The position numbers and the translations under genes are program-made. The notes beneath the pieces are model-generated. The model was not told the DNA's origin. It was given only the letters and a program-made list of their open reading frames with translations, and ran no database searches. 64,000 bases of DNA, taken from positions 1 to 64,000 of IMG/VR virus record IMGVR_UViG_3300008113_000479; one strand, written 5' to 3'. The stretch comes from a virus. Position 1 is the stretch's first letter; the number at the start of each line of letters is the position of its first letter. Of the stretch, positions 6,432-56,136 are shown in pieces.

Positions 6432-6712
6432 CAACAAAACGTGAATATCTAGTAAGCAAGGGCATTACCGTGGGCAAGCGTGGTCGCTTCTCAGGTGCTT
6501 GGTTTAATCCTTCTATATGTGCTAGTGTAATTGTAAATAGATTTCCTTTATATACCCAAGATAGACTAATGGAGTTAATGACCGAAATCATTAAAGAACA
6601 GGCTTCTAGGTTTGAGGCGTATTGGGAAGAAGGTTTTACCTCTGAGGCTATTATGCTTGCCTCACATCTTGCTGAAGTAATAGAGGCTCATGAGGTGGGT
6701 ATCCAGGCATGA
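6428..6712 (+). CDS. hypothetical protein, 94 aa, with a basic KRGRFS segment
   Basis: Residues 1-25 (REYLVSKGITVGKRGRFSGAW) resemble the short basic segment near the start of several small actinobacterial DNA-associated proteins. The rest is helical. A role in DNA binding is a guess. Four-base overlaps with both neighbours place it firmly in the operon. Confidence 0.6.
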   Translation: MTTKREYLVSKGITVGKRGRFSGAWFNPSICASVIVNRFPLYTQDRLMELMTEIIKEQASRFEAYWEEGFTSEAIMLASHLAEVIEAHEVGIQA

Positions 6713-7255: not shown

Positions 7256-7399
7256 CTCCATTACTAGTATAATGTCTATATATATAATTAGTAATATTTA
7301 CTACTGAATTAATAGTATTTACTTTGATAGAATACTGATAGATATGGCTCTAATTGGGCTTTAAAGGGGGTTTTTAGAGATGAAAATGTGGGGGGTATA

Positions 7400-8126: not shown

Positions 8127-8234
8127 TTATTGGCTATATTCATGGCCATATCTTGGCTTCTTGCATAGCCATAAGTGAGAATTTTGCCATTTGAGCTTTA
8201 TATATGGCTTATCCTCTTTAATGGTTATTTCCAT
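8127..8234 (-). pseudogene. small gene, possibly frameshifted
   Basis: ATG at 8234 follows GAGGG and overlaps the upstream gene; the frame encodes 35 residues starting MEITIKEDKPYIKLK. After residue 15 another frame looks more protein-like (NGKILTYGYARSQDMAMNI...) and runs to TAG at 8087. Removing one base near 8190 would join them into 48 residues. It may be a frameshifted gene or a sequencing indel, or the 35-residue form may be real. Confidence 0.35.
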
Positions 8235-12805: not shown

Positions 12806-12821
12806 AATTATTCTCCTTTAT

Positions 12822-14227: not shown

Positions 14228-14229
14228 TA

Positions 14230-14928: not shown

Positions 14929-14935
14929 AATGTCT

Positions 14936-14941
14936 ATTATA
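14936..14941 (-). promoter_or_regulatory. -10 box for a leaderless start inside the oxygenase operon
   Basis: Read leftward, TATAAT lies at 14941-14936, inside the stop region of the upstream gene, and the ATG is at 14928, seven bases on. It would allow separate transcription of the genes from 14928 leftward. Confidence 0.45.
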
Positions 14942-15149
14942 CCATCCTATCCCAAATAACGTAAGTGGATTCAGTTTTTCTTTTATTATATAGGTCTATA
15001 GATAATTTTTTATTTGTTCCTTGATAGCGCTCTCCAGTTTCCATATCTACTAGCATCCATTTTGCAGGACATTTTGTATAGACTGTAATTGTAACTGGAT
15101 TTTCCAACTCCTCAACTTTATCACCATTTAATAACTTTCTATGTTTCAT
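14937..15149 (-). CDS. hypothetical protein, 70 aa
   Basis: I start at the ATG in the TAATG overlap with the upstream stop (MKHRKLLNGDKVEELENPV). A TTG four codons earlier is possible. The product is a small beta-rich domain with one Cys-Pro (YTKCPAKWML). It sits among oxygenases and could be a partner or substrate, but nothing in the sequence shows this. Confidence 0.6.
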   Translation of the reverse strand: MKHRKLLNGDKVEELENPVTITVYTKCPAKWMLVDMETGERYQGTNKKLSIDLYNKRKTESTYVIWDRMV

Positions 15150-15748: not shown

Positions 15749-16250
15749 TAAACCACCAATGATCTGACTCAGCAAAATGAAAAAATATCATTGCTACTTT
15801 TTGATTTTCTGGATTTGGAAAACTTTCTCTCCAATGCATTTGATCTTCTCCGCAATAAGCTATTGCTTCGTTCGGATACAGAGTATAAGATTGGTTTTCT
15901 ATCCATAGGTCCCAGGGTTCGGTTTGATATACACACATATCTATTGTATATGTGCAAGCATTTTTATCTTTATGTTTAAATAAACTAGCATTGTTTTCAT
16001 AATGAACAAATAAAGAATATGTAGGGAGTATATTTTGATTACTAAATATATTTTTAGCAATAGGTAAAATTTTGTTAGACCACTCTTTTAAAATTGGTCT
16101 TCCAACCATGTCTATAGAATATCTGGAAAACTCTTTTTCTATTGGAAATGTATTATAGTCAGTAAATGAATTAGATATGATATCAAAGTCTTCTTTATTA
16201 AATAAATTTTTTATAATTTTTGGTTTAAAAGATTGTAAATCATAATTCAT
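15738..16250 (-). CDS. 2-oxoglutarate/Fe(II) oxygenase-like protein, 170 aa
   Basis: HKD (His93, Asp95) and GEDQMHWRESF (His139) give the metal triad, with the beta-strand pattern DLWIENQSYTLYPNEAIAY between. The 2-oxoglutarate-binding basic residue is less clear (Lys151 is a candidate). It overlaps the next gene by 11 bases. It is shorter than its neighbours. Confidence 0.72.
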   Translation of the reverse strand: MNYDLQSFKPKIIKNLFNKEDFDIISNSFTDYNTFPIEKEFSRYSIDMVGRPILKEWSNKILPIAKNIFSNQNILPTYSLFVHYENNASLFKHKDKNACTYTIDMCVYQTEPWDLWIENQSYTLYPNEAIAYCGEDQMHWRESFPNPENQKVAMIFFHFAESDHWWFNDK

Positions 16251-16351
16251 TAAATAATTCCTATGTTTTCAAATCGATCAATTTGATCATCTATGTCATT
16301 TAAAATATCAATATCCAGATCTGACGAACTGGATATTGACTTTGTGCACAT
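16250..16351 (-). CDS. very small acidic protein, 33 aa
   Basis: ATG at 16351 to TAA at 16252-16250, overlapping the next ATG region. The product (MCTKSISSSSDLDIDILNDI...) is Ser-rich at the start and acidic after. It sits in the oxygenase operon and is small enough to be a modified peptide substrate, which is speculation. Confidence 0.42.
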   Translation of the reverse strand: MCTKSISSSSDLDIDILNDIDDQIDRFENIGII

Positions 16352-16354
16352 AAA

Positions 16355-16573
16355 CTATACTTTCTTTGGCCTACCTGTTTTTTTAGGACCCATATTTGTT
16401 TCTCTACGGATGCCATGTTTATTACGATCAACTCTTGTCATTGATCTTTGATTTGCAATTCCAGATCTAAACTTACCTTGATTTGGATTTTTACGAGTAG
16501 CTTCTTGAGAAGTTACTGCACCAGATGGCTCATTATTTGGTGGAGTTTGCATTCCAGTTCCGTTATCACTCAT
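16355..16573 (-). CDS. small basic protein, 72 aa
   Basis: The start MSDNGTGMQTPPNNEPSG has Pro in its first 17 residues and is followed by a Lys/Arg-rich part ending GRPKKV, like an AT-hook-type tail. It looks largely disordered. It overlaps the upstream small gene by eight bases. Confidence 0.6.
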   Translation of the reverse strand: MSDNGTGMQTPPNNEPSGAVTSQEATRKNPNQGKFRSGIANQRSMTRVDRNKHGIRRETNMGPKKTGRPKKV

Positions 16574-16715
16574 TGATGAATGAAGTTCTTTGTTGTGGAG
16601 TTGCTGTCATGTTTAATGTTAAACCAGCTTCTCCGTCTCTTGTTACATCTAACATAGGAGCAGAAACAATTCCTGTTTCGCTACCTACTGATTCGCAGCC
16701 ACATTCGTAACACAT
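16566..16715 (-). CDS. small Cys-rich start protein, 49 aa
   Basis: ATG at 16715 to TGA at 16568-16566. It begins MCYECGCESVG, three Cys in seven residues, which could bind iron or zinc. The remainder is beta-rich. It is part of the operon of small proteins feeding into the oxygenases. Confidence 0.55.
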   Translation of the reverse strand: MCYECGCESVGSETGIVSAPMLDVTRDGEAGLTLNMTATPQQRTSFINE

Positions 16716-16718
16716 AAA

Positions 16719-16868
16719 TTACTTAGGGCCTTGTGCTTGTGCTTGATTTGAAACATCTGTTGATGGGAATGCTGCCTTTGGTGCTTCTGTGTATGACTCT
16801 GTTGGCCATGGTGAAGATCCTGCTGGCTTAGTCTCGTTAAAGCCTGTTAAATTTTTTCCGTCTGACAT
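16719..16868 (-). CDS. small Pro/Ala-rich protein, 49 aa
   Basis: ATG at 16868 follows AGGAGATATAAA. The product MSDGKNLTGFNETKPAGSSP continues with more Pro, Ala, Ser and Gln and has no hydrophobic core, so it is probably disordered. As the first gene of the operon leading to several prolyl-hydroxylase-type enzymes, it is a reasonable candidate substrate, by position only. Confidence 0.6.
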   Translation of the reverse strand: MSDGKNLTGFNETKPAGSSPWPTESYTEAPKAAFPSTDVSNQAQAQGPK

Positions 16869-16893
16869 TTTATATCTCCTATAGGTTGTATTT

Positions 16894-16929
16894 AGATGGG
16901 TCTAGAAGTCCATCTATGAATATATTATA
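16894..16929 (-). promoter_or_regulatory. promoter and leader hairpin of the oxygenase operon
   Basis: Read leftward, TGCTATAAT ends with TATAAT at 16929-16924, an extended -10 box. The RNA would contain a hairpin AGATGG/CCATCT (16915-16910 with 16899-16894) before the AGGAG site of the 49-aa gene. Confidence 0.5.
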
Positions 16930-16944
16930 GCATTTAAGAAATTA

Positions 16945-17568
16945 CTACCCCAAAACGGTGTCTAAGCCACGATATTCTGAGGGCCAGAAGAAAGAAACTA
17001 TAACATTTCTTTGACCTTCAGTTACTTTAGATACCCTATGTGGTAAATCATGGGATCCCTGAAAAAAAATAAATGTTCCAGGATTTGGCTTAATGTAAAA
17101 ATTTTCTTCTGGAAATTCTAATATACCGCCTTCGTATCCATCATTTAAATAAAGAAGCCCAGACCAATCGTCTTTTGAATTTTTTCTAATACTTTCTATA
17201 TTATCAATTTCATGATAATTATCAGTATGTAAATCATTTTCTGATCCTTTTAACATTAGGCTATAAAACATAGTTTTTATATCCATTTGTTTATTTGTAA
17301 AATTAGATATAGTATTAGACATTGAGCTACAAACCATGGTTAATAAATCGACTGCTAAGTCATGCTGATTTTCATTTTTGTATTTTATTATAGGATTACC
17401 ACATTGATACGTATAGCCATCTTCAGGTTTTAATGATGGACCACCTTTAATTTGAAAATTAGGTGTATCTGATAAATCTTTATTAAATACCTCTGTAATA
17501 AGATTTGCACTACTAGTAGATATATAATTTTCAATTATATAAATTTTATTGTTTATATTTTTTATCAA
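16945..17568 (-). CDS. 2-oxoglutarate/Fe(II) oxygenase, P4H type, 207 aa
   Basis: HTD (His114, Asp116), GLLYLNDGYEGGILEFPEEN, PGTFIFF, HDLPHRVSKV (His177) and GQRNVIVSFFW (Arg187) are all present. The start is a TTG overlapping the upstream stop. The substrate is unknown. Confidence 0.9.
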   Translation of the reverse strand: MIKNINNKIYIIENYISTSSANLITEVFNKDLSDTPNFQIKGGPSLKPEDGYTYQCGNPIIKYKNENQHDLAVDLLTMVCSSMSNTISNFTNKQMDIKTMFYSLMLKGSENDLHTDNYHEIDNIESIRKNSKDDWSGLLYLNDGYEGGILEFPEENFYIKPNPGTFIFFQGSHDLPHRVSKVTEGQRNVIVSFFWPSEYRGLDTVLG

Positions 17569-19231: not shown

Positions 19232-19408
19232 TTATTGATCCCAAAGTTTTATGTGAAAACTACAGGGATCTCCACCGTCTTCCCAATCTTGCATTTCTTC
19301 ATCAGTTAATGGAGGACCCTCATGAGTATCACAAAATACTTCAGATACCCAATTTTTTTCTCGACCATATTCGTACCAAGATTGAACATCTAAGAATTCT
19401 ATAGCCAT
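19232..19408 (-). CDS. conserved small actinophage protein, 58 aa
   Basis: ATG at 19408 to TAA at 19234-19232. The pattern WYEYGREKNWVSEVFC, THEGPPLTDEE and GGDPC resembles a small protein common in actinobacteria and their phages. It has two Cys and several His. The function is unknown. It overlaps the thioredoxin gene end by 10 bases. Confidence 0.65.
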   Translation of the reverse strand: MAIEFLDVQSWYEYGREKNWVSEVFCDTHEGPPLTDEEMQDWEDGGDPCSFHIKLWDQ

Positions 19409-19704
19409 TGCTTTAGCTCCTCAACCATTTGATGTTTTGGTTTTGCACCAATAATTCTTTTTACTGGTTTTCCTTTTTCAAATATTATTGTTGTTGGAAC
19501 TGATGAAACATCATATTTGTAAGCAGTGTTTGGATTTTCATCTATGTCTAATTTTGCAATCCATACATTATTTTCTTTAGATATTTCATCTAAAATTGGA
19601 GAAAACATTTTGCATGGTCTGCACCATGTAGCCCAAAAATCTACTACTAAAACATTATGTAAAGACAATAATTTATCAAAATTTAACTCATTTGCCTCTA
19701 GCAT
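19399..19704 (-). CDS. thioredoxin, 101 aa
   Basis: A standard thioredoxin fold with the active site WCRPC (residues 27-31), the cis-Pro motif SVPTTIIF, and GAKPKHQMVEEL at the end. It reduces protein disulfides. Possible clients are the phage oxygenases, ribonucleotide reductase (not in the window) or the polymerase. Its closeness to secreted proteins is notable, but there is no signal peptide, so it acts in the cytoplasm. Confidence 0.92.
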   Translation of the reverse strand: MLEANELNFDKLLSLHNVLVVDFWATWCRPCKMFSPILDEISKENNVWIAKLDIDENPNTAYKYDVSSVPTTIIFEKGKPVKRIIGAKPKHQMVEELKQWL

Positions 19705-19910
19705 TATTTGTTTTTTAATTCCTCCGCTGCAGAATTAAACTTGTTCATAAATGTTTGTATTACAAAAAATGTAGTCTCTCCAGCATTTTTAGCCATAGCC
19801 TGAGAGGCCTCTTCGTTTTTTTCTGTCTCTGGTACAGAGTTGTACCACTTTTGGTACAACTCTGCAGAAACCTCTTTAATAATTTCTTCTAATACGGTAA
19901 TATTAGCCAT
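19704..19910 (-). CDS. hypothetical helical protein, 68 aa
   Basis: The ATG is followed by an all-helical acidic product (MANITVLEEIIKEVSAELYQ...). It overlaps the subtilase gene by eight bases and ends at the thioredoxin start. No family recognised. Confidence 0.65.
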   Translation of the reverse strand: MANITVLEEIIKEVSAELYQKWYNSVPETEKNEEASQAMAKNAGETTFFVIQTFMNKFNSAAEELKNK

Positions 19911-21036
19911 TTATTTTTTTAGCCCATTCTAATTTAATAGCAGCAAGCTTATCAGCAGCAGCCTTAACCTCTGCTTGATATTGAGCCTCAGCAGCAGCAA
20001 TTGCTTTATTTGCTTCAGCTATTATAGCAGCTTTTTTCTCCGCAGCAATCTGCTCTGCAGTTTTTGTTACAGGAGCTGGTATTGTTGTTACGGTACTTGT
20101 TGCTGGCACTTGAGCCTCAATTGGAGTTTGAGATGACGGTATAAGTTTACCATATTGACCTCTTGCACCTTTAATTGGTTTAGAGATAGCATTTAATTTA
20201 TTAATAACTTCATCATATGACTTTAACTGTGACTTCATATTAATCCACATTGCAGCAGCAACTTGTGTAGAGATAGAAGATCCTGTAGCATATTTTATTG
20301 ATCCTCCTGGATTGACAACTTGCATATTACCTATAGCATAAAAATCTAATCTATCTTTATCAAAATTAGAATAATTATCTATTTGTTCATATTGATCGGC
20401 CATACCAATTGATATTGAATCATTAATGCACGCTGGCCAAGATAATCTAAAAAGATCTCTCATGTTTCCTGCTGCAAAAAATACAGGAGTACCAGAAGAT
20501 ACAAGAGAAGAAATTACTCCACGCAACATTGTGCTTGCTGGACAATAGTCTGTTAAAGTAGTTAGTATATTGTGATTTGCCTGAGACATAGCAACTGCTT
20601 GAATATTAAATTTAGATTGATTATCTAATACCCATTTAAGCGCTAAAGATACACCAGTTTCACCAGTAGATTGTCTTGCACCAGAAGGAGTATTTCCAAT
20701 AATTCTAATAAAAACAATTTTAATATTCGGATTAGTTCTAACAGCAACAGATGCCATTTGAGTTCCGTGATCAAACCCATTTTTAGAAATTATATTTGAA
20801 GGAAGAACTGCAGAACCTGTTCCTTCCATATACTTTTGTCCATTTGGACATGAGGCCCATTCTAATACACAAACCTCATATACAATTTTATCTTTAAAAA
20901 TTGGTAATGAAGTATCTAATGCTGTGTCTAAAATAGCTACTGTAGGGGCTTGTTGTTCCGCCTTAGCCTCTACAGCAAGAAATAAAGTAGATAGTAGTGA
21001 TATTACTGATACTGCACTTATTAGTTTTTTATTCAT
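19903..21036 (-). CDS. secreted subtilisin-like serine protease (S8), 377 aa
   Basis: The signal peptide (residues 1-26, AKA cleavage) is followed by the subtilase triad: Asp37 (VAILDTALD), His90 (FDHGTQMAS) and Ser254 (GSSISTQVAAA), with oxyanion Asn191 (AAGN). The C-terminal 60 residues are an Ala/Glu-rich coiled coil. It should act outside the membrane. It could process surface proteins, exclude other phages or assist release. A propeptide is not evident. The gene has a leaderless promoter with a palindromic operator. Confidence 0.88.
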   Translation of the reverse strand: MNKKLISAVSVISLLSTLFLAVEAKAEQQAPTVAILDTALDTSLPIFKDKIVYEVCVLEWASCPNGQKYMEGTGSAVLPSNIISKNGFDHGTQMASVAVRTNPNIKIVFIRIIGNTPSGARQSTGETGVSLALKWVLDNQSKFNIQAVAMSQANHNILTTLTDYCPASTMLRGVISSLVSSGTPVFFAAGNMRDLFRLSWPACINDSISIGMADQYEQIDNYSNFDKDRLDFYAIGNMQVVNPGGSIKYATGSSISTQVAAAMWINMKSQLKSYDEVINKLNAISKPIKGARGQYGKLIPSSQTPIEAQVPATSTVTTIPAPVTKTAEQIAAEKKAAIIAEANKAIAAAEAQYQAEVKAAADKLAAIKLEWAKKING

Positions 21037-25927: not shown

Positions 25928-28432
25928 TTACCCCCTTATTCTCATTATTGTACTACCAAGTATTACTTGACCAACTAAAATTGCTGCAACTAAAACTTCT
26001 TTAGCATCTTGTCTTTCTTGTGGAGACATATCTGCTCCAATATTTGCTAATGCTTTACTCAACTCACACTTTTGTTCTTCAGTTAATCCTTCAATTGCTT
26101 CATCTGGATTAAAGCATCCAGCAATTGCATTAACAAGTGCTGCTGGAGATTCTAACGTGAGTAATGCTGAGGCGACTTCTGCTGTAATAACTACTGGATT
26201 ACCGCTAGCATCTTCTCTAACTTCTACTGGAATTGATGGTGGTAGGTCTCGGTATTCAAGGCCCGCTGCTTCAATTGCTGCTGCTTCTACTGGAGCACCT
26301 TCTGCTGATGTAACTAAAACATCTGCAACTAAATCTTTTTCTGCTAATGTCAGAACACCATCTTCAGATAATGCTTCAGATAAATTAACAACTTCATTTA
26401 CAGTAATTTCTCCATCTGCAAAAAGTATTTCTGTAATTAATTCAGATTCTTCTATAGACAATCCGCCTTTAGACAATGTAGAAGATATCTCAGAAATAAC
26501 CTCTTCTGAAACTTCTCCGCCTTCAGAAATTAATTCTAATATTGCATCGGCATCCTCAGCTGTTAAATTTCCATCTTCAATTAAATCACTAACAACCTCT
26601 TGAGCCTCTTCAACAGTTAATTCTTGCTCCTCTACTGCTGGTTCGTCAATAACTGGCTCATCAACTACTGGTTCTTCTATTATTGGCTCTTCTATAACAG
26701 GTTCGTCAATAACTGGCTCATCAACTACTGGTTCATCAATAATTGGTTCATCAATAATTGGTTCTATTGGTGTTATGTAAGATGGCTGTGACGGCACACT
26801 AATTATTTCTTCTTGTGGAATTGTAATAATAGTTTCAACATACTGGCTTACTGGACCAGACCAGTTTGCAATTCTAATTGTATATGAAGCACCTTCTGTT
26901 AATCCAGTTAATTGAATAGATTCTGGTGCGCCGTCTGTATTATATGTCCCACCAGCATAAGGATTTTCTGCTGTTGGGTCGTCAGTAATTACTTGATAAA
27001 ACCATGTGTTTGGAGTATATCCAGAAGGCAATTCTGGTGTAACAGTTACTGTTGTGCCATCTACTACTGCTTGAGATATTATTGGCGCAGGAGTTGGTAT
27101 ATTATTATTAATAACGGTTATAAGTTGATTAGACTTAGTATTTAGTGTTGATTGCAATGATGTTTTTGTTGATAGTGCTGAATTTAAAGTATTTGTTAAA
27201 GAATTTGTATTAATAGAATTTATTACAGAAGTATTTAAAGTATTTTGTGAAACAACTGGACTCAAGCTTTGGTTTAATTGTGTAATAGTGGCATTAGCTG
27301 CATCTACTGCTGCTTGAACGGTTGATGTATTTGGATCTACATATGGAGTAAATGATGGACCCTGACTAATTTGTCCAGAAAATCCAGTACCAGTATTAGT
27401 GTCTGTAATTTCAGTAATTGTGCCATTATTTGTTTCTCTATAATTAAATCTTGCTCCGCCTGGTATTGGTCCAACTGCTGTTACATTTGCCATCCATGCA
27501 CCATCATTTGGATTTACATCTGCATTGAATCTAATTTGAACCATTTGTGTAGAAGCATCTTGTTGTGGATAAGGCCTTAAATCCCAAGCAATGTCTAAAC
27601 TTGTTCCAGTAGTTGAATATGTAATTCCAGTTCCTGTACTCCAAGTTGTCCAGTCCCATCCAGCAATAGAAACTGATGGGGCATCTGGAGTTTGATAATA
27701 AACCCATCCCTGATCGACACCAAATGTTATTGTTGCATTTGATCCTACATAAACATCATTATAAACTGTTCCGCCCATTTGCATTCCAAAAGGTAAAGTC
27801 ATTCTTACTCCAGCGTCATCTACGCCAGCCAAAACGTTTGTTGTTGTTCCAATAGTTGCCTGTAAATTATTTACTGCTGTTTGAGCATTATCAATAGCAA
27901 TATTTGCCTGAGTTAATTCTGTTTGAGCAGTTGCCTGTGCTGTAGAGGCTGCTGTTTTTGCTGCAGTGACTTGAGATATTTCAGTCTGTGCTGCGGTAAC
28001 AGTAATGCTATCTATTGATGTTTGAGCAGATGTAATAGTTAATTTAGCATCTTGAACTATTTGAGAGCTTTGATCTGTTGGTGTTGCTACTATATTAATA
28101 TTATTTATCGTAGTAGTTGCAGTATCAACTAAATTAATTGCTGTTTGGGCCATTGAAATACTTTGAGATACTTGTGTTACTGCTGTTTGAGCTTGAGACA
28201 ACTCTGTTTGTGCCACTGATACTAGTGCTGTAGATGAGTCCGTTGCTGCAATAGCTTGTTGAACTTCTGTGTTAGCTATACCAAGAGCATTATTTACTGC
28301 TTGTTGCGCTGGGCTTACTATTACCTGTTCTTGTCCGCCCTGCTCTGTAGCCCACGCATAACTTGGCCCAATAAAAAATAGCCAACCTGTTACAAAAAGG
28401 CTAGCTAAAAAGTATTTTAACTTTCTACTCAA
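25928..28432 (-). CDS. large secreted surface protein, 834 aa
   Basis: I use the TTG at 28432 because GGAG lies six bases upstream; a TTG at 28444 would add four residues. A signal peptide or membrane anchor (residues 4-30) precedes a Thr/Ala/Gln-rich helical region, a beta domain (VGSNATITFGVDQGWVYY), an Fn3-like domain (residues about 440-520), an acidic Pro-Ile-Glu-Asp repeat (26.62-26.77 kb) and helical repeats. The last 60 residues include MSPQERQDAKEVLVAAILVG. It may be displayed on the infected cell or be a virion fibre; the signal argues for the first. Confidence 0.7.
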   Translation of the reverse strand: MSRKLKYFLASLFVTGWLFFIGPSYAWATEQGGQEQVIVSPAQQAVNNALGIANTEVQQAIAATDSSTALVSVAQTELSQAQTAVTQVSQSISMAQTAINLVDTATTTINNINIVATPTDQSSQIVQDAKLTITSAQTSIDSITVTAAQTEISQVTAAKTAASTAQATAQTELTQANIAIDNAQTAVNNLQATIGTTTNVLAGVDDAGVRMTLPFGMQMGGTVYNDVYVGSNATITFGVDQGWVYYQTPDAPSVSIAGWDWTTWSTGTGITYSTTGTSLDIAWDLRPYPQQDASTQMVQIRFNADVNPNDGAWMANVTAVGPIPGGARFNYRETNNGTITEITDTNTGTGFSGQISQGPSFTPYVDPNTSTVQAAVDAANATITQLNQSLSPVVSQNTLNTSVINSINTNSLTNTLNSALSTKTSLQSTLNTKSNQLITVINNNIPTPAPIISQAVVDGTTVTVTPELPSGYTPNTWFYQVITDDPTAENPYAGGTYNTDGAPESIQLTGLTEGASYTIRIANWSGPVSQYVETIITIPQEEIISVPSQPSYITPIEPIIDEPIIDEPVVDEPVIDEPVIEEPIIEEPVVDEPVIDEPAVEEQELTVEEAQEVVSDLIEDGNLTAEDADAILELISEGGEVSEEVISEISSTLSKGGLSIEESELITEILFADGEITVNEVVNLSEALSEDGVLTLAEKDLVADVLVTSAEGAPVEAAAIEAAGLEYRDLPPSIPVEVREDASGNPVVITAEVASALLTLESPAALVNAIAGCFNPDEAIEGLTEEQKCELSKALANIGADMSPQERQDAKEVLVAAILVGQVILGSTIMRIRG
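26620..26770 (-). repeat. short tandem coding repeats (Pro-Val/Ile-Ile-Asp-Glu)
   Basis: About ten copies of a 12-18 base unit encode EPVIDEP/EPIIEEP variants in the large surface protein. The units are near-identical at DNA level, which favours expansion and contraction. Confidence 0.65.
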
Positions 28433-28440
28433 TTGGTTCT

Positions 28441-28469
28441 CCAATGCAACAAAATTTTTGTTACATTGG
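28441..28469 (-). promoter_or_regulatory. long hairpin over the start of the surface protein
   Basis: A 29-base near-perfect palindrome (arms CCAATGTAACAAAA and TTTTGTTGCATTGG as read leftward) lies between the stop of the zinc-ribbon gene and the TTG start. Its 3' arm runs into GGAG, so the hairpin could limit ribosome access or act as an attenuator. No T run follows, so it is not a typical terminator. Confidence 0.5.
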
Positions 28470-28471
28470 AA

Positions 28472-28621
28472 TTATATCATGTGTACACCAACTGTTCCAT
28501 ATGATCTTGTCATTGAGTATCCGCAAGAAGGACAAGGTGGTACAACTTCTGTTTCATCAAACTTACGAGTAACTTCTAATGACTTATCGCATGTTATACA
28601 ACTGTATTCATATATTGGCAT
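28472..28621 (-). CDS. FmdB-type zinc-ribbon protein, 49 aa
   Basis: ATG at 28621 (TAATG overlap with the nuclease stop) to TAA at 28474-28472. MPIYEYSCITCDKSLEV is the classical FmdB/CxxC-CxxC start, and CPSC follows at 30-33. These small zinc ribbons are usually annotated as putative regulators. Confidence 0.75.
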   Translation of the reverse strand: MPIYEYSCITCDKSLEVTRKFDETEVVPPCPSCGYSMTRSYGTVGVHMI

Positions 28622-29151: not shown

Positions 29152-29577
29152 TCAGTCGTTTATATCTTTTATCTTAAATGTTTTTGGTTTTTGATCTTCT
29201 GGGGTGTTTTTAAATAAAGAAACAGCCAAAATACCATTCATCCATGTAACATGCTTAATCTCAATATTTTCTGCAAGAGAAAAAGTTCTTGTAAAGTTTC
29301 TGGTTGCTATACCCTTATGGATATATTTTTCTTGACCATCTTCTTCAATATTTCCTTTGATAGTTAAATTATTTTTTTCTTGAGATACTTCAATGTCATC
29401 CTTAGAGAATCCAGCTAATGCTAGTTCAATCATATAAGTATCATCAGTAAATTTGATTAAGTTATATGGTGGATAGTTTGATGTGTTTTTTGGAAGGCTT
29501 TCAATTTCTTTAAAAAAAGAATCCCAACCAATAAAAAATGGATCTTTAAAAAGATCCATAGACAATGTACTTACCAT
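29152..29577 (-). CDS. small heat-shock protein (HSP20 family), 141 aa
   Basis: Residues 38-125 are an alpha-crystallin domain: YMIELALAGFSKDDIEV, LTIKG, RNFTRTFSL, and WMNGILAVSLF near the end. These are ATP-independent holdase chaperones; phages carry them to protect folding during assembly. The N terminus (MDLFKDPFFIGWDSFFKEI) is the usual hydrophobic arm. Confidence 0.92.
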   Translation of the reverse strand: MVSTLSMDLFKDPFFIGWDSFFKEIESLPKNTSNYPPYNLIKFTDDTYMIELALAGFSKDDIEVSQEKNNLTIKGNIEEDGQEKYIHKGIATRNFTRTFSLAENIEIKHVTWMNGILAVSLFKNTPEDQKPKTFKIKDIND

Positions 29578-29647: not shown

Positions 29648-30613
29648 CTAAAATAGTTGTCTATTTATTATTTCTGTATAGAATTCTTCAGCCATATGTA
29701 TATGTTTATGTATCCCCCAATGACCAAAACTATTTTCGCTAAAATCAGCAGCATTATTAAATAAAGGGTGTTCGCTATACTCTTTGTGGCATTTTAAATG
29801 AATAGTTGATTGATTTTGAAATGACTTTGTTATATCTTCAGGTCTTCCTGCAAAATAATTATTTAAAATATGACTAATTGTATTATTATTTTTAATATAT
29901 GAATATATCAAGCTATTATTATCTTCCCAAAAATTCCAAATTAATTTTATATCATTTGAATTACAATATTCTTCTAACATTTTAATAAAAATAAAACTAA
30001 TAAAAATTGCATATTCTCCTGGAAGAATGCTTTCTGCGTTGTATGGTGACTTTGCATATTTTGGTCTTTCTCTATTTCTTATGTTAACAGAAAGAATTGT
30101 TTCTTTTGTATCTTTTTTTATGTTATTAAAATTAGGTTCAAAATAATTTTCTATATTTGGAAACTCTACTCTAAAAATTGGAAATGTTGCAACTATTAAC
30201 TTTGGCTTTCCAATTTTATTAAAATATTCAAATGCCTTTATTACTTGACCTTGTAATGAGTCACCGCCTAGAGCAAGTCTAGCAAAATTAGTATTTAATT
30301 TTTTTGATAAAATATGTGGCCAAGTAAAGTCATCAATCATTCCATATCCATAAGTTTGAGAGCATCCAAGTATAAGAATATCTGCTGGATCTATAAAGTT
30401 TTCTGATCTATAGAAGTCTGAATTTATTTTATATTCTATTTTTAATATTTTATCATTTTGCATGTAAATTGGAGGCGGAACATCTTTAGGATTTTTTAAG
30501 TTATCGTTTGGAGCATTATAATTTAAAGAAGATAAGTTCCTATAAAATAAATCTGGGTACAGGTCTATTAAATTTTCACTATGCACAAAAGATTTAGGAA
30601 ATTTCTTTACCAT
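29648..30613 (-). CDS. SGNH/GDSL-type hydrolase-like protein, 321 aa
   Basis: ILILGCSQTYGYG (block I with Ser near residue 85) and GHWGIHKHIHMAEEF near the C terminus (catalytic Asp/His block) fit SGNH esterases/acyltransferases. It is a paralogue of the protein at 32024-32887, and the two flank a carbamoyltransferase. A role in O-acylation or deacylation of a glycan is plausible. It overlaps the carbamoyltransferase gene by 20 bases. Confidence 0.7.
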   Translation of the reverse strand: MVKKFPKSFVHSENLIDLYPDLFYRNLSSLNYNAPNDNLKNPKDVPPPIYMQNDKILKIEYKINSDFYRSENFIDPADILILGCSQTYGYGMIDDFTWPHILSKKLNTNFARLALGGDSLQGQVIKAFEYFNKIGKPKLIVATFPIFRVEFPNIENYFEPNFNNIKKDTKETILSVNIRNRERPKYAKSPYNAESILPGEYAIFISFIFIKMLEEYCNSNDIKLIWNFWEDNNSLIYSYIKNNNTISHILNNYFAGRPEDITKSFQNQSTIHLKCHKEYSEHPLFNNAADFSENSFGHWGIHKHIHMAEEFYTEIINRQLF

Positions 30614-32027
30614 ATAATTCTTTCCAAATAATTGTATCCCCTTTATCGTTTAATAAAGGTTGACCTTTTACATTTAAACTAGTATTAAGTAATATTGGAA
30701 CACCAGTTCTTGAATAAAATTGATTTAAAACTTTCCATAAACCTTCATGCTGTTCTCTATTTACTGTTTGAACTCTAGATGTACCATCTGCATGAACTAC
30801 AGATGGTATTAATTCTGGTTTTTTACATTTAACTGCATACTGCATATATGGCGATGTAAAATTCATTTCAAACCAGTCTTTGGCAAACTCTTCCATAACT
30901 ACTGGTGCAAACGGTCTAAATTCTTCTCTTTGTTTAATTAAATTAACTTTGTTCTTTATGTCAGGATCTCTTGCATCTGCCAATATGCTTCTGTTGCCTA
31001 ATGCTCTTGGACCATATTCTGCTCTTCCATTGGCAACGGCTACAATTTTATTTTTTATTAAATTTTCTATAATTTTATCTACTGGGTAGTCCCCTTTAAT
31101 ATTGTGTCCAAGATATGGAGTTTCCCAATTTAAATGTTTACCGTATAATGCTGCTGCTGCTCCTAAAGAACTTCCAGCATCTCCAGGGTTTGGCATAATC
31201 CAAATGTCTTTAAATATTTTCCATAGAATTGTGTTAGCAGAGCAATTTAATGCACACCCACCCATAAACACTAAATTATTTTTTCCAGTTAACTCTTTTG
31301 CCATATTCATAAATTCAAACAGTCTAGACTCATACACTTCTTGAACTGCTGCTGCTATATCAAATTTATCTTGCTCAGTAACCAAGCCCCAGTCATTAAT
31401 TCCTTTATGAAAATTATATTTTTGATTATTAATAGATGAAAAATATTTATTGACTTTTAAACGATATTTATTTGCATCACCATATGCAGCCATTCCCATT
31501 AAAATATACTCTTCTTCATTAGGCTTTAAGCCAACTAATTGTGTAAAAGCTGAGTAAAATAACCCAAAACTAAACGGGTAATTCTTTTTATACACTTGTT
31601 TAATTTTAGATCCTTCACCAATCCAAATAGTTGATGTATTCCATTCGCCAATAGAATCAAGCACAACTATTACAGCATCATTAAATTTACTAGTATAGTA
31701 TCCAGCACAGGCATGAGAATAATGATGTTTGAAATATGTTGTTGGAACTATTCTATTAAACATATTAGTTATTTTATATTGTGGAAGCCAATCGCCATTA
31801 CCACCTTTTAACAATAACCTAGAGGCCTTTAATAATGGTTTTTCATAATAAGCTATTTTATCTGGAAAGCCATGTTGTATGGCGTCATCAATTAAATCCT
31901 TATTTGTATACCAGTCATTTTTCTTTTTACTATATCTTTCAGCATGTCCAGCAAAAAGTATATTCCCATCTTTAATTAAGGATACAGATGCATCATGCGA
32001 TGTTTCATTAATTCCTAAAATGATCAT
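30594..32027 (-). CDS. carbamoyltransferase (NodU/CmcH/TobZ family), 477 aa
   Basis: I start at the ATG at 32027 (MIILGINETSHDASVSLI), which overlaps the upstream stop. The N-terminal Kae1-like ATPase domain and the C-terminal YrdC-like part (AEYGPRALGNRSILADARD; EFRPFAPVVMEEF) are both present. The family transfers carbamoyl from carbamoyl phosphate to a hydroxyl of a sugar or natural product via carbamoyl-AMP. The very C terminus is short. Its place between two SGNH proteins suggests a glycan-decorating module. Confidence 0.93.
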   Translation of the reverse strand: MIILGINETSHDASVSLIKDGNILFAGHAERYSKKKNDWYTNKDLIDDAIQHGFPDKIAYYEKPLLKASRLLLKGGNGDWLPQYKITNMFNRIVPTTYFKHHYSHACAGYYTSKFNDAVIVVLDSIGEWNTSTIWIGEGSKIKQVYKKNYPFSFGLFYSAFTQLVGLKPNEEEYILMGMAAYGDANKYRLKVNKYFSSINNQKYNFHKGINDWGLVTEQDKFDIAAAVQEVYESRLFEFMNMAKELTGKNNLVFMGGCALNCSANTILWKIFKDIWIMPNPGDAGSSLGAAAALYGKHLNWETPYLGHNIKGDYPVDKIIENLIKNKIVAVANGRAEYGPRALGNRSILADARDPDIKNKVNLIKQREEFRPFAPVVMEEFAKDWFEMNFTSPYMQYAVKCKKPELIPSVVHADGTSRVQTVNREQHEGLWKVLNQFYSRTGVPILLNTSLNVKGQPLLNDKGDTIIWKELYGKEIS

Positions 32028-32887
32028 TGTAAAGCTTTCTGAAAATACTCTGCGTAATGAGTATGCATATGTACGCCCCAATGTGCTCTATCTATTCCAT
32101 ATTCTATATCGCTACCACGATCAAATATTTCATTAAAATCATTTTTTAAATTAATATGGCAACCATTGTTAATTTCTTTTTCTATATGCTCTGTATTAAT
32201 TAAAAAATCAAATTCGTTAGACTCAATTAATGGAGGCAAAAATCTATTGTCCCAAGTTGACCAAACTAATTTAATATTTGAAGATTTACAATACTGCTCT
32301 AAAATTTGTATATACTTTATTGATAGCCATCTTGGAACAATTAAGGGCATTACGTCTTCTATATAATGTGGGGCTTTAGAGTATTTTGGTAAATCATGAT
32401 GGTGTTCTCCTAAAAATATTCTAGCTAAATCTTTATTTAGTTTATCACTCTTTGAGGTCCAGATTTTATTATCTACTGGCAATTGTATTCTATCTAGGTC
32501 TGGGAATAAACATATTAAGTTTTTAGGATTTCCATATTCTTTAAAATATGCAAATATAGAATTAATTATAGATAGTACAGATGCTCCAGGGTATCCTAAA
32601 TTAGTATAAGATAGCGACATATTATTAGCAACTTGAACACCCCAAATTTTTTCTTCTGGCACTCCGCTACCAAATGTAAATGAGCAACCACCAATTAATA
32701 TATCCGCTTTGCCAGAAATTTCTTTTCCTCTAAAACCATGGCTATTTATATAATAATATCTTGTTGGATCCGTTATTTCATTTAGACCACGCTCTTGATA
32801 CCCATATCTTTCAGAGGGCTCAGATTTATTTAAAAAACTATAAAACATTTTTGAATTATCATATTGAGGATAGATAGAGTTAAACAT
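32024..32887 (-). CDS. SGNH/GDSL-type hydrolase-like protein, 287 aa
   Basis: ADILIGGCSFTFGSG (nucleophile Ser near residue 68) and DRAHWGVHMHTHYAEYF (Asp/His block) parallel the other SGNH protein almost motif for motif. The YYYINSHGFRGKEI segment before block I is typical of this subgroup. It is the first gene of the trio. Confidence 0.72.
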   Translation of the reverse strand: MFNSIYPQYDNSKMFYSFLNKSEPSERYGYQERGLNEITDPTRYYYINSHGFRGKEISGKADILIGGCSFTFGSGVPEEKIWGVQVANNMSLSYTNLGYPGASVLSIINSIFAYFKEYGNPKNLICLFPDLDRIQLPVDNKIWTSKSDKLNKDLARIFLGEHHHDLPKYSKAPHYIEDVMPLIVPRWLSIKYIQILEQYCKSSNIKLVWSTWDNRFLPPLIESNEFDFLINTEHIEKEINNGCHINLKNDFNEIFDRGSDIEYGIDRAHWGVHMHTHYAEYFQKALQ

Positions 32888-33395: not shown

Positions 33396-34040
33396 TTAAA
33401 ACTTATTATGCTTATAAAAATCTTTAGTATGAATAAATCCAGGAAGAACGTAACGCATAGGTCCGTCTTTTGGTGCCCTTACTCCGTGCTCAAATTCTTC
33501 TGTTCCAGGAAATATTAATAATGATCCTGATTTTGGTTTTATTTCAAAATCTTTTTTAACAAAATAAAATTCTCCCCCATTATAATTATCATTTAAATAT
33601 ATAATTGAGGCATATCTAATTGATGGGTCTGTGTGTTGATCTACATGGCTTTTTAATGGAACATCTTTATATTGTCTTTGAATGCTTCCAAATCCAGGTA
33701 CATCTAAGTCTGGAAAATCTTTTAGAACAGATTTTAATCTTTCTGTAATTTGAGTTCTTTCTGGCAAATTATTTGTACTTATTATTTTATCTGCCCAGTT
33801 ATCTGTAATTTCAAATTTTCCTTCTTTAACTAAATTATCAACATCATCTCTTCCAAATTTTTGCATACAAAATCTTTTTAGATTTTCTGTATATTCTACT
33901 CTCCAGCCGTCTTCATCAGTGTTCTCTGCAACATTAACTAAAGTATTTATTTCCTCTTTGGTTAAAAAATTATCAACCAATAAAACTTCGTCAATTACAT
34001 ATCTAGCGCTGTATCCGTTTTCAATAAATTTAGTTAGCAT
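33396..34040 (-). CDS. 2-oxoglutarate/Fe(II) oxygenase, P4H type, 214 aa
   Basis: HVD (His132, Asp134), SIIYLNDNYNGGEFYF, PKSGSLLIFPG, FEHGVRAP (His185) and PMRYVLPGF (Arg196) make a complete site. It stands apart from the main cluster, beside the terminase, with a divergent N-terminal 110 residues. Confidence 0.9.
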   Translation of the reverse strand: MLTKFIENGYSARYVIDEVLLVDNFLTKEEINTLVNVAENTDEDGWRVEYTENLKRFCMQKFGRDDVDNLVKEGKFEITDNWADKIISTNNLPERTQITERLKSVLKDFPDLDVPGFGSIQRQYKDVPLKSHVDQHTDPSIRYASIIYLNDNYNGGEFYFVKKDFEIKPKSGSLLIFPGTEEFEHGVRAPKDGPMRYVLPGFIHTKDFYKHNKF

Positions 34041-42068: not shown

Positions 42069-42282
42069 CCTGATTATCAGCTGGTTGTTCAATGTTCTCC
42101 TTTAATTGAAATACAAATTCTTTTGTCTCTTCATTATATTCAACATTTAAGTTTTTTTGTTCAGCACCTGAACTAATAAATACATCAAGCGGTATGTTTA
42201 CTACTTTTTGAGTATCTAAAATTGCTACTAAAATTTTTGTAGCATTCATAGCTTCAAATATTTCATTTGGCGTTTGAGTCAT
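42052..42282 (-). CDS. hypothetical protein, 76 aa
   Basis: A beta-rich acidic protein (MTQTPNEIFEAMNATKILVA...) following GGAAATAAA. It overlaps the end of the polymerase fragment by four bases. No family recognised. Confidence 0.65.
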   Translation of the reverse strand: MTQTPNEIFEAMNATKILVAILDTQKVVNIPLDVFISSGAEQKNLNVEYNEETKEFVFQLKENIEQPADNQDAPTE

Positions 42283-44288
42283 TTTATTTCCTTTATCATT
42301 AGGGTTCCATCGTCTAGTTTTGACAGAACAGGTTTGCTTTTCATTCCTTCACGCATTTTTGCTAAAACTTTTGCATACATTGCTGGGAAAGCAATTGCTC
42401 TGGTTAGCTCTTTATTTTTATCTGTCATTACAATATGCGCCATTGTTTTGCCAGCTTTAGTTTTATATGGACTAAAATTAATTACAAGTTTTTCATCATC
42501 TTCTAAATCATATTCTTTTCTATATAAATAATCTACAAATAAATCTGGTCCGTTTGGATCTATGTCATTTACTTTTATATATCTTGCAATTCTATTATCT
42601 CCCACAAGAATAAAATACATTTGGCCAGTTTCAATTTGTGTCTGCTCATTATGAAATAATCCAATTGATCCAGTTTCATCTACCAATTCTACTCTTGCCC
42701 AACCAGTACCACGTTTAATGCTTTTAACCATTCCAAACATTGGGAATGAGCCTAAATCATCAAAGTCTTGAATTGGTTTTGCTTGAGCTTTAATTCTTGG
42801 TGGTATCGATTCTAAATTAAATGTAGGTATTCCTAAGTATTCGTAGTAACTTTCTTTTTCCTTACCGCCTCTAAGATTGTCCTCGAAAGCAGCACCGCCA
42901 ATAGCATTGAGAGCAGATACAGCCCTACTGTTAATACCACTACCTTTCGCAGAGGCTTTTTGTATGAAGTCGGAATAATTGGCATATGGCCTTCTTTCTA
43001 TAATTTTGTTTGCAATGCTATCTGAAATAAATTTAATTTCAGCCAAACCAAACTGAATCGCATTTTCTTTTAATGAAAAATATACATCTGATTCATTAAT
43101 GTGTGGTAGTAGTATTTTAAGATTTAATCTTTTAGCTTCAATTAAATATTCTGTTCTTTTGTCTTTATCATTTTCGTTTTTAAGAATTGAAAAAATAAAT
43201 TCAAGTGGGTAGTAATGCTTAAGCCAAGCCGTATAATAACTAAGCATGGAATAAGCAACAGCGTGACTACGATTAAAAGAATAACCTGCGTGAGCTTCAA
43301 AATCATGCCATAGGGATTCCGCTTTCTTTTTAGAAATGTGCTTTGAAGCCCCATTAACAAATTGATCTTTGAACTGGTCGAACTCTTTTGCATCTTTCTT
43401 CTTTCCAATAATCTTGCGGACCTTGTCAGCCTCTGACCAAGACATTCCACCTAAGTAGACGCAAGCTTGCATAACTTGCTCTTGATATATAATAACACCA
43501 TATGTATTCTCTGTAAAAGGCTTCATAATTTCATGGACATAACTAACATTTTCTACGCCATGTTTTCTATTAATATATGAAGCGCCTACTGTATTCATTG
43601 CTCCTGGCCGAACTAGAGCATTTGAGGCAGCAAGGTCTTCAAATTTATCTACACCCATTTTAATTAATAAATTTGTATAAGGGGTTGCTTCTGCCTGAAA
43701 CACTCCCTTTGTATAGCCTTCACTTAATGTTTTATAAACATCTGCGTCATCAAATGGCAAGCTAGACAACACTATGTCTTTGCCATGTCTTTCTTTAATT
43801 GCTTTTATTGTATCTGAAATTACTGATAGCGTTTTTAATCCTAGGGCATCTACTTTAATTAAGCCAATATCTGCTACAGTATCCATATCATATGCAACTA
43901 CTGGGATTCTTCCTGAAACTTTATCCTGTGAATCTTCACGAGATTCAATAGGTGCAAAATTTCTTAAATCATCTTTTGCAACTACTACTCCTGCAGCGTG
44001 GACTCCAACGCTTCTAATTTTTCCACGTAATCTTTCTGCAAGCCATAACACCTCTGGATACTTCATTCTAAATTCTTTAGTGTTTGGAGAATCCATAAAA
44101 TCTTCAAATGTATCAATTGATTTCATTGCACGATTTACATCTTGAAGTGGAACCATAAATACACGAGCAGCATCTCTAATTACACCCTTGTCTTTAAAAT
44201 AAGTGTAGGTGGAAATAGAAGCAACATGCTTAAACTTCTTCTTTAAATAATCTTTAACCTCTTTACGACGACGGTCTTCAAAGTCTGT
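42279..44288 (-). pseudogene. dnaE: DNA polymerase III alpha, C-terminal fragment (no own start)
   Basis: The frame begins at the junction near 44288 with TDFEDRRRKEVKDYLKKKF, which in intact enzymes directly follows the catalytic PDID motif. It has SVGVHAAGVVV, GLIKVDALGLKTL (third catalytic Asp), YQEQVM, FNRSHAVAYS, fingers and the OB-fold tail, 669 codons in all. The stop TAA at 44291-44289 lies just upstream in this frame. The first in-frame ATG is at 44156. About 50 residues with the GS loop and the first two catalytic Asp are missing between this piece and the N-terminal piece. Confidence 0.88.
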
Positions 44289-45415
44289 TTATTTTCTTTA
44301 GCCCAATTAATCATGTCTGCTACTACTAGGAAATATGATGCAAAGCTTTTATCTTTAATAATTTCTAATTCTTCAATTAATCTTTGTTCATATCCGTCAT
44401 TTCCAAGCCATGACGAGGTCAGGCGTAGTGTTTCTAGGCCTTTAAAGGCCATTTGGGACAACTTTTCATCGGCATCTGTCTTAGGTACTGGGAGGAGATC
44501 TAAACCCCTGTTAAAATCGTATTCTCCAATTTTTTCAGATATCTCAATAGTATTATCATATATATCCGTACGAGTAATTCCAGCCTTATTAAAGTCAGCC
44601 TCAATTTCAGACCTTGATTGAATAAATAAATTATAGTCTTGAAATGATATTCTTCTGTCTGGGTACAGGTAATTAAATCTATCCAGCATATTATTCATAT
44701 TCTTGGACATTTCAAAATCTGCTTCTTTATCTGATTTAGGAGATGTAGATAGAATAAGCATTGCTTCTTCTAGTATTTTATCTTCTCCTTTAGCAAAATG
44801 AGCATCTCCAGTTGCTACTGGCTTTATATTTAATTTATCTGCTAGATCTAATAAATTGCTATTTATTTCTTTGGGGTTATGAGATTGTACTTCAATGTAA
44901 AAATCTTCGCCAAAAGTTTTCTTAAAATCTTTAAGTAGAATTTCCGCTTCCTCAAGGTTTCCTTTTTCAATGCACTTACTAATAAGCCCATTAAGGCATC
45001 CAGAAAGAACAATAATATCTTCTGCATATTCTTTTAGAACCTCCCTGTCAATTCTAGGCTTATGATAAAAACCTTCATTCCAAGCTAACTCTTGAAGTCT
45101 ATTTATATTACTTAATCCATTTTGATTTTTAGCCAATAAGATAATGTGATTATATGCCTGAATACTTTTATCTGTTTTTGATGACCTATCAAATCTATCT
45201 GTTGGTGATATGTAAGCCTCTACTCCAAGAATTGGTTTAATTCCAATTTCTTTACAGGCCAATTGCATTTCTCTATGTGATGAAAGTGTACCATGATCTG
45301 TTATGGCAATAGATGTCTGTCCAGCATCTTTTGCAGCCTGTGCTAGTTCTAGTGGAGAGTTAAGGCCATCCATTAGGCTGTAGTAACTATGTACGTGTAA
45401 GTGTGTAAAACTCAT
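44243..45415 (-). pseudogene. dnaE: DNA polymerase III alpha, N-terminal PHP fragment
   Basis: The start MSFTHLHVHSYYSLMDGLNS is the PHP domain of a replicative polymerase, with AGGCGG upstream. The match continues through FASYFLVVADMINWAKEN (about residue 374). Intact enzymes then have a GPGRGS-type loop, but this frame reads QTLKTVVVKRLKII and stops at 44243. Thus 376 residues are genuine and 14 are out of frame. A deletion of roughly 150 bases, not a multiple of three, at 44282-44291 explains both fragments. Confidence 0.88.
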
Positions 45416-52188: not shown

Positions 52189-52707
52189 TTAAACATATTT
52201 ATTTCTAATAGAATACGCAATTCCTACCCTTGGAGCAGAAACTGTTGTTACTTCATGCGGAGTTCCTGTTGGCAAGTAAACCATGTCTCCTGAATTTAAT
52301 ATCTTTTTAATTAAAGACCCGTCTCCCTTTTTAATTTTCCATTCTGCAGATCCTAAACAATTTAAATGTATTTGTTGACAAGAGTCTTGATGCTCTTTTA
52401 ATCCGCTGGTGGGTCCAAGTGTATCTGACATAATAACTGCTGGTTCGTCCCAAACAAGGTCCCCCCATATTTTATAAAGACCATTTCTTAAAATATTAAA
52501 TCCGTCAAATTTTTTCATTAAAGGAGACCCTGTAGTTTCAAAAGCTATTGACAAATTATTATTTTCCCATCTAGTAGGTCTTCCATAATTTGCCTCTTTG
52601 CGATAATTTAAAAAATCTTCCCATGATTCTTTAAAATCAATTTTAGATTCTATAAAGCCAATTTTATTATTTTCTTTTAACTCAATAAGATTTTTTATCC
52701 AGTCCAT
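52189..52707 (-). CDS. JmjC/cupin-type Fe(II) oxygenase, 172 aa
   Basis: HQD (His106, Asp108) in GLKEHQDSCQQIHLN and SGDMVYLPTGTPHEVTTV (His151) match the JmjC-like protein at 12822-13412. It overlaps the P4H-type gene by one base, so the two oxygenase types are again paired here. Confidence 0.75.
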   Translation of the reverse strand: MDWIKNLIELKENNKIGFIESKIDFKESWEDFLNYRKEANYGRPTRWENNNLSIAFETTGSPLMKKFDGFNILRNGLYKIWGDLVWDEPAVIMSDTLGPTSGLKEHQDSCQQIHLNCLGSAEWKIKKGDGSLIKKILNSGDMVYLPTGTPHEVTTVSAPRVGIAYSIRNKYV

Positions 52708-53312
52708 TAATCAAGCCAGCTAACTACGGCATACCTTGTGCCGTTATATACTTTATTTACTGAATGATTGTATACATAAGTTGATGGAAATATCAACATA
52801 GAATTTTTTTCTGGCTTATAAGATAAATTAAATCTTGGGAAATTGATTTCTCCTCCTTTATAGTTATCGTTTATATACCATGCGGTTGAAATTGTTCTTG
52901 GATATGTTAAATCATCATCTAAATGATTTGAAAAAAAATGTCCTTCTCCATATTTTAATAATTGATAAGAGTCATGTGTTTTTGTTTTAACTCCGTACAT
53001 TGATTTATAGTCTTCTTCAACTGGGTGCATAAATTCATAAAGTTTTTTTCCTAAATTATAATCAAATATTTCTTTAACATTTTCTGGCTCTATCTTTTTT
53101 AATTTTGGGTAAGAACAATGAAATACATGTAAATTCCTTACGCTATAATCTATAACATCTTTTCCATCTTTTAAAATATGTGGCTCAATCCAATTTAATC
53201 CTGTTTCATTTAACGATAAAGACTCTTCTATATCTTCTATAAAATTTAAATATGAGTTTTTTATGTTTCTATATATTACAATACCAGGAGCAATTTCTTC
53301 TTTTTCAAACAT
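52707..53312 (-). CDS. 2-oxoglutarate/Fe(II) oxygenase, P4H type, 201 aa
   Basis: The ATG at 53312 lies in a TAATG overlap. HLD (His130, Asp132), STAWYINDNYKGGEINFPRF, FPSTYVYNHSV (His183) and NGTRYAVVSWL (Arg193) are complete. It is the paralogue of 15149-15748. Its location beside tail genes suggests a virion or surface target. Confidence 0.9.
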   Translation of the reverse strand: MFEKEEIAPGIVIYRNIKNSYLNFIEDIEESLSLNETGLNWIEPHILKDGKDVIDYSVRNLHVFHCSYPKLKKIEPENVKEIFDYNLGKKLYEFMHPVEEDYKSMYGVKTKTHDSYQLLKYGEGHFFSNHLDDDLTYPRTISTAWYINDNYKGGEINFPRFNLSYKPEKNSMLIFPSTYVYNHSVNKVYNGTRYAVVSWLD

Positions 53313-53545
53313 TACCATTTACCTATTGGGCATTTTGATTCTTCTAGTTTAGTTTTTAATTTCATAAGGCATCCACATTGTTTGCATTGTGTTGTTAATT
53401 TTATTAATTCTGGGCATGAGTAACATATTTGCATTCTATTATTTTTAATATCGTCTGTGGCAATTTTAACGTGTGGATTTAAAAGGTCTAATGGAGTTGT
53501 GCCATTTTTTTCTTTATATTGTTGCCATTTACTTTTTTCTGTCAT
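53312..53545 (-). CDS. DUF6171-like zinc protein, 77 aa
   Basis: The pattern QICYSCPELIKLTTQCKQCG then CLMKLKTKLEESKCPIGKW matches a small zinc-binding family frequent in aquatic phages. Four Cys coordinate zinc. It is upstream of, and coupled to, the oxygenase, and may be its partner. Confidence 0.75.
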   Translation of the reverse strand: MTEKSKWQQYKEKNGTTPLDLLNPHVKIATDDIKNNRMQICYSCPELIKLTTQCKQCGCLMKLKTKLEESKCPIGKW

Positions 53546-53925: not shown

Positions 53926-54124
53926 ATATAAATTATACCTTTTCTAATAAATTTTGTAAATAGTATATTTATCATGAATATTGAGCACAACATATTGCCC
54001 TGGATCCGTCTGAGTTATTATACGCATCACATGCTCCTGGTGAAAAACATGTATAATAATTATTACTTGCAGGGTTTGTTACATCGTAACTCTTACATGT
54101 ATATCTATATTCTATACATACCGA

Positions 54125-54216
54125 TGGAGTAACGGCTGGAGTAACGGCTGGAGTAACCGCTGGAGTAACGGCTGGAGTAACGGCTGGAGTAACGGCTGGA
54201 GTAACTGCTGGAGTGA
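54125..54216 (-). repeat. 12-base tandem repeats coding (VTPA)n, array 1
   Basis: About eight near-identical copies of GGAGTAACGGCT (as written on the + strand) encode Val-Thr-Pro-Ala repeats in the fibre. A second shorter array of the same unit lies 320 bases away. Confidence 0.85.
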
Positions 54217-54538
54217 CTGATGCAGAAATTGGTGGTGTATATGATATTGAACTTGAAGCAGAACCTCCTGTTTGATTTGCTCCATTATATACTGTTAATG
54301 AAATAGAAACTTCAGCTCCCGAATAAACCTGAAACGATGATCCCGAATCAGATACAGAAGAACTAGTTTCAGTAGTTCCATAGTCTAAATAATTAGCAAC
54401 AAATGGTTGCAATACATTTAAGAAATATGACGCTTGACTTGTAGAAGACCAACTTACTGATACTGTTACTAATTGTGTAGATGATGTCGTAGGTGCTGAT
54501 GCAGTTAGTGACGTAATTGTAGGAGGTGAAACTGGTGA

Positions 54539-54592
54539 TACCGCTGGAGTGACCGCTGGGGTAACCGCTGGGGTAACGGCTGGAGTAACTGT
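54539..54592 (-). repeat. 12-base tandem repeats coding (VTPA)n, array 2
   Basis: Four to five diverged copies of the 12-base unit. Recombination between the two arrays would remove the domain between them in frame. Confidence 0.8.
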
Positions 54593-55464
54593 ACCTCCTT
54601 CTGGTACACAGATTGTAGAGCTAAAGTTAACTGCTACTCCGCCTACCGTTGCAGATATATAAGCATAATGAGTAAATGAAGTATTTACTCCAGTCCATTC
54701 ATAACCCTGATCAAGTAACGGAACTGTATTGGAGCTAAATGCGCTTCCATCACACCGATACAATCTAATTGTTGCATTTGTTGAATTAGTTAATACTGCT
54801 GTGCTTCCAGTACTAGAGCTCCAGGATCCTCTTGTGCCGTCCGAAGATACCGCTCTAACCCAATAATAACGTGTTATAGGGTTGTTAGTTAAAAGACCGT
54901 TAGTGTCTGTTAGGCTTGTAGTATTTGATGTGTAAGAAGCAATTCCTGTGTTTGAGTCTGTAGTATTATATGATATTTCATAAAATGAAGCATCTGATGC
55001 AGCCGACCAGGTTAGATAATAATTAGCATCTGCGCCCCAAGTCCATCTTTGTATTTTATAACTTGTGGAAATTGCTTCAAGGCTAGTACTTATTCTTTGA
55101 TTTGAATAGTCTTTTGTATGACTTAAATTTTGTGGAGTTCCTGGTGTTATTGTTGCCGTTAGAGTTTGTGCAGTTGTGGATTCAAAACCAGAAAATCCAA
55201 AATAGTTATCAGCACCAACCCATAAATAATAAAGTGTATTTTGAAGTAATCCAGTAACTTCTGTGCTAGTTGAACTGTATCCTCCTGAAGGGTAATTGCC
55301 TCCATCTGGAGGAGCGTTGCTTGTAGTAATTGCCCAAATGTATCCTGTTGGTACCCCGCCAATTGGGTTAGCCTGCCAACTAAATGTTAAACTATTTGTT
55401 GTAATATTACTTACAGATAAGTTAATTGGTTTTCCTGGTTTATTAGAAGTTAATGTAGTTCCAC

Positions 55465-56136
55465 TTATTTGATTTGAAAAGTTACCATAATATCCATTTG
55501 CAGATGTTCCTGTCCACTGAAGTATTCTAAAATCATATTGTATTGTATTACTTGAGATCCAGAATGTTGTGATGGGGTCCATGTAAAACTTATTGAATAG
55601 TTATCCGTGACTGCATTATACTCACTTTGACTATATGTTAAGTTAGTAATATCTCTTGGCATTTCAAATGTTATTGGGTCAGAATCTGAGGTTGTTGAAT
55701 TATTGTTTGATGATGTTGCTGTAACTGAAAATCTAAATTGATTTTGTTTATTTGGGTACATATTAGACTGAGGTACGTCGTACGTTTTAGTATTTACTGA
55801 TCCAACAGATGGATTTGTAATGTTACCTGAATCCATTTCAGGAACAACCCATGTTGTAAAATCTAAATTATATTTTTGAAATAAATAAATTCCACTATTA
55901 AAATTTGTCCAATTATAGTTTCTACCAGTTAATCTTATAGTGCCATTTGCATTAGTTGTTTTGATAATTTCAACCTGTTCAGAAATTACTGGAACTAGCC
56001 CAGCTGACCAAAATGATTTCCATGATCCAGATACATTTATAAATCCATTTATAATTTTTTTCCATGAACCATTTAAATTGATATATCCATCAATTATTGT
56101 TTTCCATGAACCACCCTTATTAATAAATTGAGGCAT
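55465..56136 (-). pseudogene. tail-fibre protein, N-terminal part (frameshifted)
   Basis: Begins with three short repeats of the type GSWKTIIDGYINLNGSWKKI, then beta domains including SFTWTPSQHSGSQVIQY, where an Fn3-like strand is cut off. The last 20 codons are out of frame owing to the 5-base repeat at 55537-55549. It is translated from an ATG overlapping the upstream stop. Confidence 0.72.
55537..55549 (-). repeat. 5-base tandem repeat at the fibre frameshift
   Basis: ATTGT-ATTGT-ATT on the + strand. One unit fewer restores the fibre reading frame exactly: 2165 bases minus 5 is a multiple of three. Confidence 0.8.

Follow-up and report, generated by a model that had tools for sequence, protein, structure and literature searches.

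A phage polymerase gene written without its catalytic core is very probably an assembly artefact of a single virus record

The polymerase gene of this virus record raised the question of whether a phage could have lost the catalytic core of its replicative enzyme. If the deletion were real, the record would describe a phage whose replicative polymerase is dead. The window, i.e., the whole stretch of DNA that was analysed, comprises positions 1-64000 of the 71,982-bp record, and the gene is written in it in two parts separated by a short junction:

44291..45415, minus strand: N-terminal part of a DnaE-type DNA polymerase III alpha; translation of 375 aa with terminal INWAKEN; profile matches PF02811 (1.3e-45), PF07733 (1.2e-7) and phrog_405 (3.1e-96)
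42279..44285, minus strand: remainder of the polymerase, in another frame; translation of 668 aa that begins (T)DFEDRRR; profile matches PF07733 (2.2e-27), PF17657 (4.8e-48) and PF14579 (2.4e-15)
44286..44290, minus strand: junction, five bases in place of the 150 nt of relatives; 145 nt absent, blunt join at 44288/44289

The N-terminal part contained the PHP domain and the beginning of the polymerase core, and the C-terminal part contained the end of the core, the fingers and the HHH motif. The first-pass annotation had described a break from INWAKEN to TDFEDRRR one frame over, which was borne out by the minus-strand translations of both parts. It had also estimated the loss at about 50 residues, with a length that is not a multiple of three, and this was right: the five bases at the junction correspond to 150 nt in relatives, a shortfall of 145 nt (145 mod 3 = 1). 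The microhomology at 44288/44289 was 0 nt, and the record contained zero ambiguous bases, with no N run to mark the joins. In a Pfam search of the 71,982-bp record, PF07733 was matched twice (profile positions 19-57 and 107-260), and positions 58-106 were skipped. The alignment of an intact relative to 2hpi_A placed the GPGRGS loop as well as D463 and D465 (PDID; Taq DnaE numbering) within the missing segment, while D618 was kept in the gene of the record as the D of IKVD. We take D463, D465 and D618 of Taq DnaE to be the catalytic aspartates, and the alignment agrees with the earlier proposal that the GS loop and the first two catalytic Asp were lost and the third was retained. Thus, the gene as recorded does not hold the GS loop and the first two catalytic Asp in one frame. 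The PHP domain is followed in order by the polymerase core, the fingers and the HHH motif, with the window halves and the intact relative matching PF02811, PF07733, PF17657 and PF14579. Outside the gap the gene was intact and showed 100% amino-acid identity to its intact sisters.

Both gene halves were used to retrieve 160 related viral-contig loci, some of which overlap within the same contig. The distance across the site was exactly 150 nt, in frame, in 158/158 of the loci measurable there, which rules out a lineage-wide loss of the segment. Two of the retrieved contigs, G001 (3300008116_000027) and G002 (3300031758_000210), come from two other samples and represent the same strain, being 100% identical to the window along the 712 nt that lead up to the junction. 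Both carry the intact segment, with the GS loop and the three catalytic Asp in a single open frame. A 30-mer of the intact allele had exact matches only in the G001 and G002 records, and a 30-mer across the window junction had zero exact matches in other viral records, in a search that may omit records very near the window's own. The deletion is therefore missing from independently assembled, near-identical contigs.

The record was also compared along its length with G001, G002 and a third contig, G003 (3300008116_003782), which together cover everything but about 6985-8010. Across approximately 71 kb, the aligned blocks contained only 6 mismatches, three of which lay no more than about 25 nt from a join, and the window had no extra bases in any aligned block. 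The record did show five private deletions (222, 74, 66, 145 and 91 nt), i.e., the polymerase gap and four further sites:

6499..6500: second private deletion, 222 nt in comparison to G001; fuses two small plus-strand ORFs
8198..8199: third private deletion, 74 nt in comparison to G003
28481..28483: fourth private deletion, 66 nt in comparison to G003; directly upstream of the gene at 25928-28444 (minus strand)
55517..55544: fifth private deletion, 91 nt in comparison to G001 and G002

Microhomology was 0-1 nt at four of the five joins, and the edge of the fifth was blurred by nearby mismatches. Neither the 26-mer across the 6499..6500 junction nor the 24-mer across the 28481..28483 junction matched any other viral contig. 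The positions of the deletions ignored the genes, as they resulted in an ORF fusion, a frameshift in a tail-like gene, a site upstream of a gene and the break in the polymerase. The 222-nt deletion accounts for the ORF at 6428-6712 (plus strand), in which two small genes are falsely fused. The tail-like gene at 53972-56136 (minus strand) is split by the 91-nt deletion into the overlapping frames 55465-56136 and 53972-55582.

As a control, near-identical locus pairs were examined, with 80 terL loci added. The deletion signature was present in 3/9 records with sample ids of the 33000081xx/82xx series versus 0/112 loci from other samples, for which 1.15 Mb was compared, and the window's own sample presumably belongs to this series. 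The affected records were as follows:

3300008116_001066, positions 8031, 10014 and 11070: drops of 177 nt (in the polymerase gene), 121 nt (in recA) and 308 nt
3300008113_001828, positions 7941 and 8913: drops of 112 nt and 178 nt (in terL)
3300008266_000343, position 7672: drop of 93 nt in the polymerase gene

Multiple events were thus seen in the record and in the series records, and none in the control loci. The site of the break in the polymerase gene varied between records, and every such record had a near-identical sister in which the gene was intact; this is a property of the data set and not of the gene. Records of the sample-id series lacked roughly one segment every 14 kb (6 segments over about 85 kb of comparison, and 5 in the 71 kb of this record). 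Length differences of 204, 537 and 77 nt between pairs of 97-98% identity were left out of the count and may represent real variation. The retrieved loci contained only 6 N in 3.05 Mb, a count that would fit both a stripping of N runs throughout the collection and N runs that were not written in the first place. The sample ids were found named in no paper in the literature; a Great Lakes paper using IDBA-UD (PMC5647855) was considered, and no tie to these samples was established.

The contigs of the same strain in sample 3300008116 stop at the polymerase site. G003 starts at the equivalent of 44265, and in G001 the last 272 nt, past the intact segment, belong to a second strain that is about 90% identical. 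Since the contigs end or switch strain at this point, the assembly graph appears to fork where the strains share sequence. We propose that sequence shared between co-occurring phage strains would produce such a fork, and that two flanking contigs would then be joined with the shared piece between them skipped, so that its bases are lost. The joining step was probably paired-end scaffolding or gap closing that leaves no N, although this software step is itself inferred. A point against this reading is that a plain k-mer assembler needs k-mers that span the junction, and hence a blunt join without N requires scaffolding, gap closing or a later removal of N. All deletion sizes, from 66 to 308 nt, fit inside a short-read insert.

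Taken together, the comparisons indicate that the 145-nt gap is very probably an artefact of assembly that is specific to this record and that the DnaE-type Pol III alpha gene of the phage is ordinary and intact. The first-pass annotation had offered four options, namely a recent deletion, a defective subpopulation, assembly collapse and RNA-level repair, of which only assembly collapse was supported. In its favour are the intact allele of the strain in two other records, the four further private deletions, and the recurrence of the same defect in one sample-id series together with its absence from the other samples compared. A real recent deletion or a defective subpopulation, in which the phages replicate only by means of a helper phage or the host polymerase, is very unlikely. 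It is compatible with the sharp junction in a record free of ambiguous bases, and a very recent loss predicts the perfect identity of the rest of the gene to its sisters. However, it requires that a genome with about six substitutions underwent five independent deletions, its junction occurs in no other record while the intact allele is present in two other samples, and the like deletions in different essential genes of the sister records are not explained by the biology of this gene. There is an equally slight chance of a natural subpopulation that carries the short allele with the other four deletions and is complemented by intact phages or by the host polymerase. A microhomology-mediated deletion was rejected, given 0 nt of microhomology at the polymerase site.

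Chimeric or truncated molecules that arose during amplification or library preparation and were picked up by the assembler are likewise expected to produce private deletions confined to a single sample series. Nevertheless, a chimera would have had to take over the consensus at five separate sites, and joins of this kind frequently show several nt of microhomology, as opposed to 0-1 nt at four of the five joins here; this bench origin is likewise very unlikely. The least probable reading, with a chance close to negligible, is RNA-level repair, a split gene or an intron or intein, whereby the missing piece would come from another source or the reading frame would be corrected post-transcriptionally. 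Phages with split polymerase genes are known, but in this case the anomaly is an absence of coding bases and not an insertion, and the arrangement was found in no relative. Nothing was found in support of RNA-level repair. The missing GS-loop piece, for which a search of the rest of the genome had been suggested, was sought by the PF07733 search of the 71,982-bp record, which is probably incomplete relative to the phage genome; the two known pieces were the only matches, with no further copy of the missing part, and a split gene with its missing piece elsewhere in the record was rejected. An intron or other RNA element at the break was rejected as well, as the Rfam matches in the window were two tRNAs only, none of them an intron or other RNA family near the site. 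A polymerase lacking its catalytic core is almost certainly not a biological discovery. As an artefact, the gap is a warning on the records of this sample-id series, in which genes that look split, broken or recoded call for a comparison with sister contigs before any biological claim is made.

Several other genes of the phage were observed in the window. A full-length catalase-peroxidase gene (KatG-like) lies at 10028-12064 (minus strand) and is also present in G003 (100%), G012 (88%) and G005 (87%); it was not found in the 14 other related records searched. Its matches in the cultured phage collection were bacterial or prophage-like records of <60% identity. It is possibly an auxiliary gene against peroxide. 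Many genes resembling 2-oxoglutarate/Fe(II) oxygenases were found at 12128-17568, 33396-34040 and 52189-53318 (minus strand); Pfam backs those at 12128-12805 (2OG-FeII_Oxy_3) and 13409-14227 (TauD), and the other oxygenase-like genes were judged by eye. Further phage-borne genes on the minus strand encode a carbamoyltransferase (30594-32081), Hsp20 (29152-29577), a subtilase-like protease (19903-21036) and thioredoxin (19399-19704).

The deletions resemble the scaffold-gap (contig-joining) errors of short-read metagenome assembly, which likewise are private, blunt losses shorter than the insert in otherwise identical sequence, indifferent to genes and frame and located at a strain fork; the record differs in that its joins bear no N run. 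Split or 'fractured' phage replication genes (split inteins, introns) likewise present a core replication gene in two pieces, whereas here no intein or intron lies at the break, bases are missing and a second fragment is absent from the record. The phage itself is a tailed freshwater phage with relatives among the Streptomyces phages, e.g., BillNye, and its DnaE-type polymerase is an ordinary one. The actinobacterial phage DnaE-type polymerase III alpha (phrog_405) of BillNye has the same domains in the same order and shows 57% identity to the C-terminal part over its full length. The sole difference from the phrog_405 polymerases is the 145-nt gap of the record, which the near-identical sister contigs are without.
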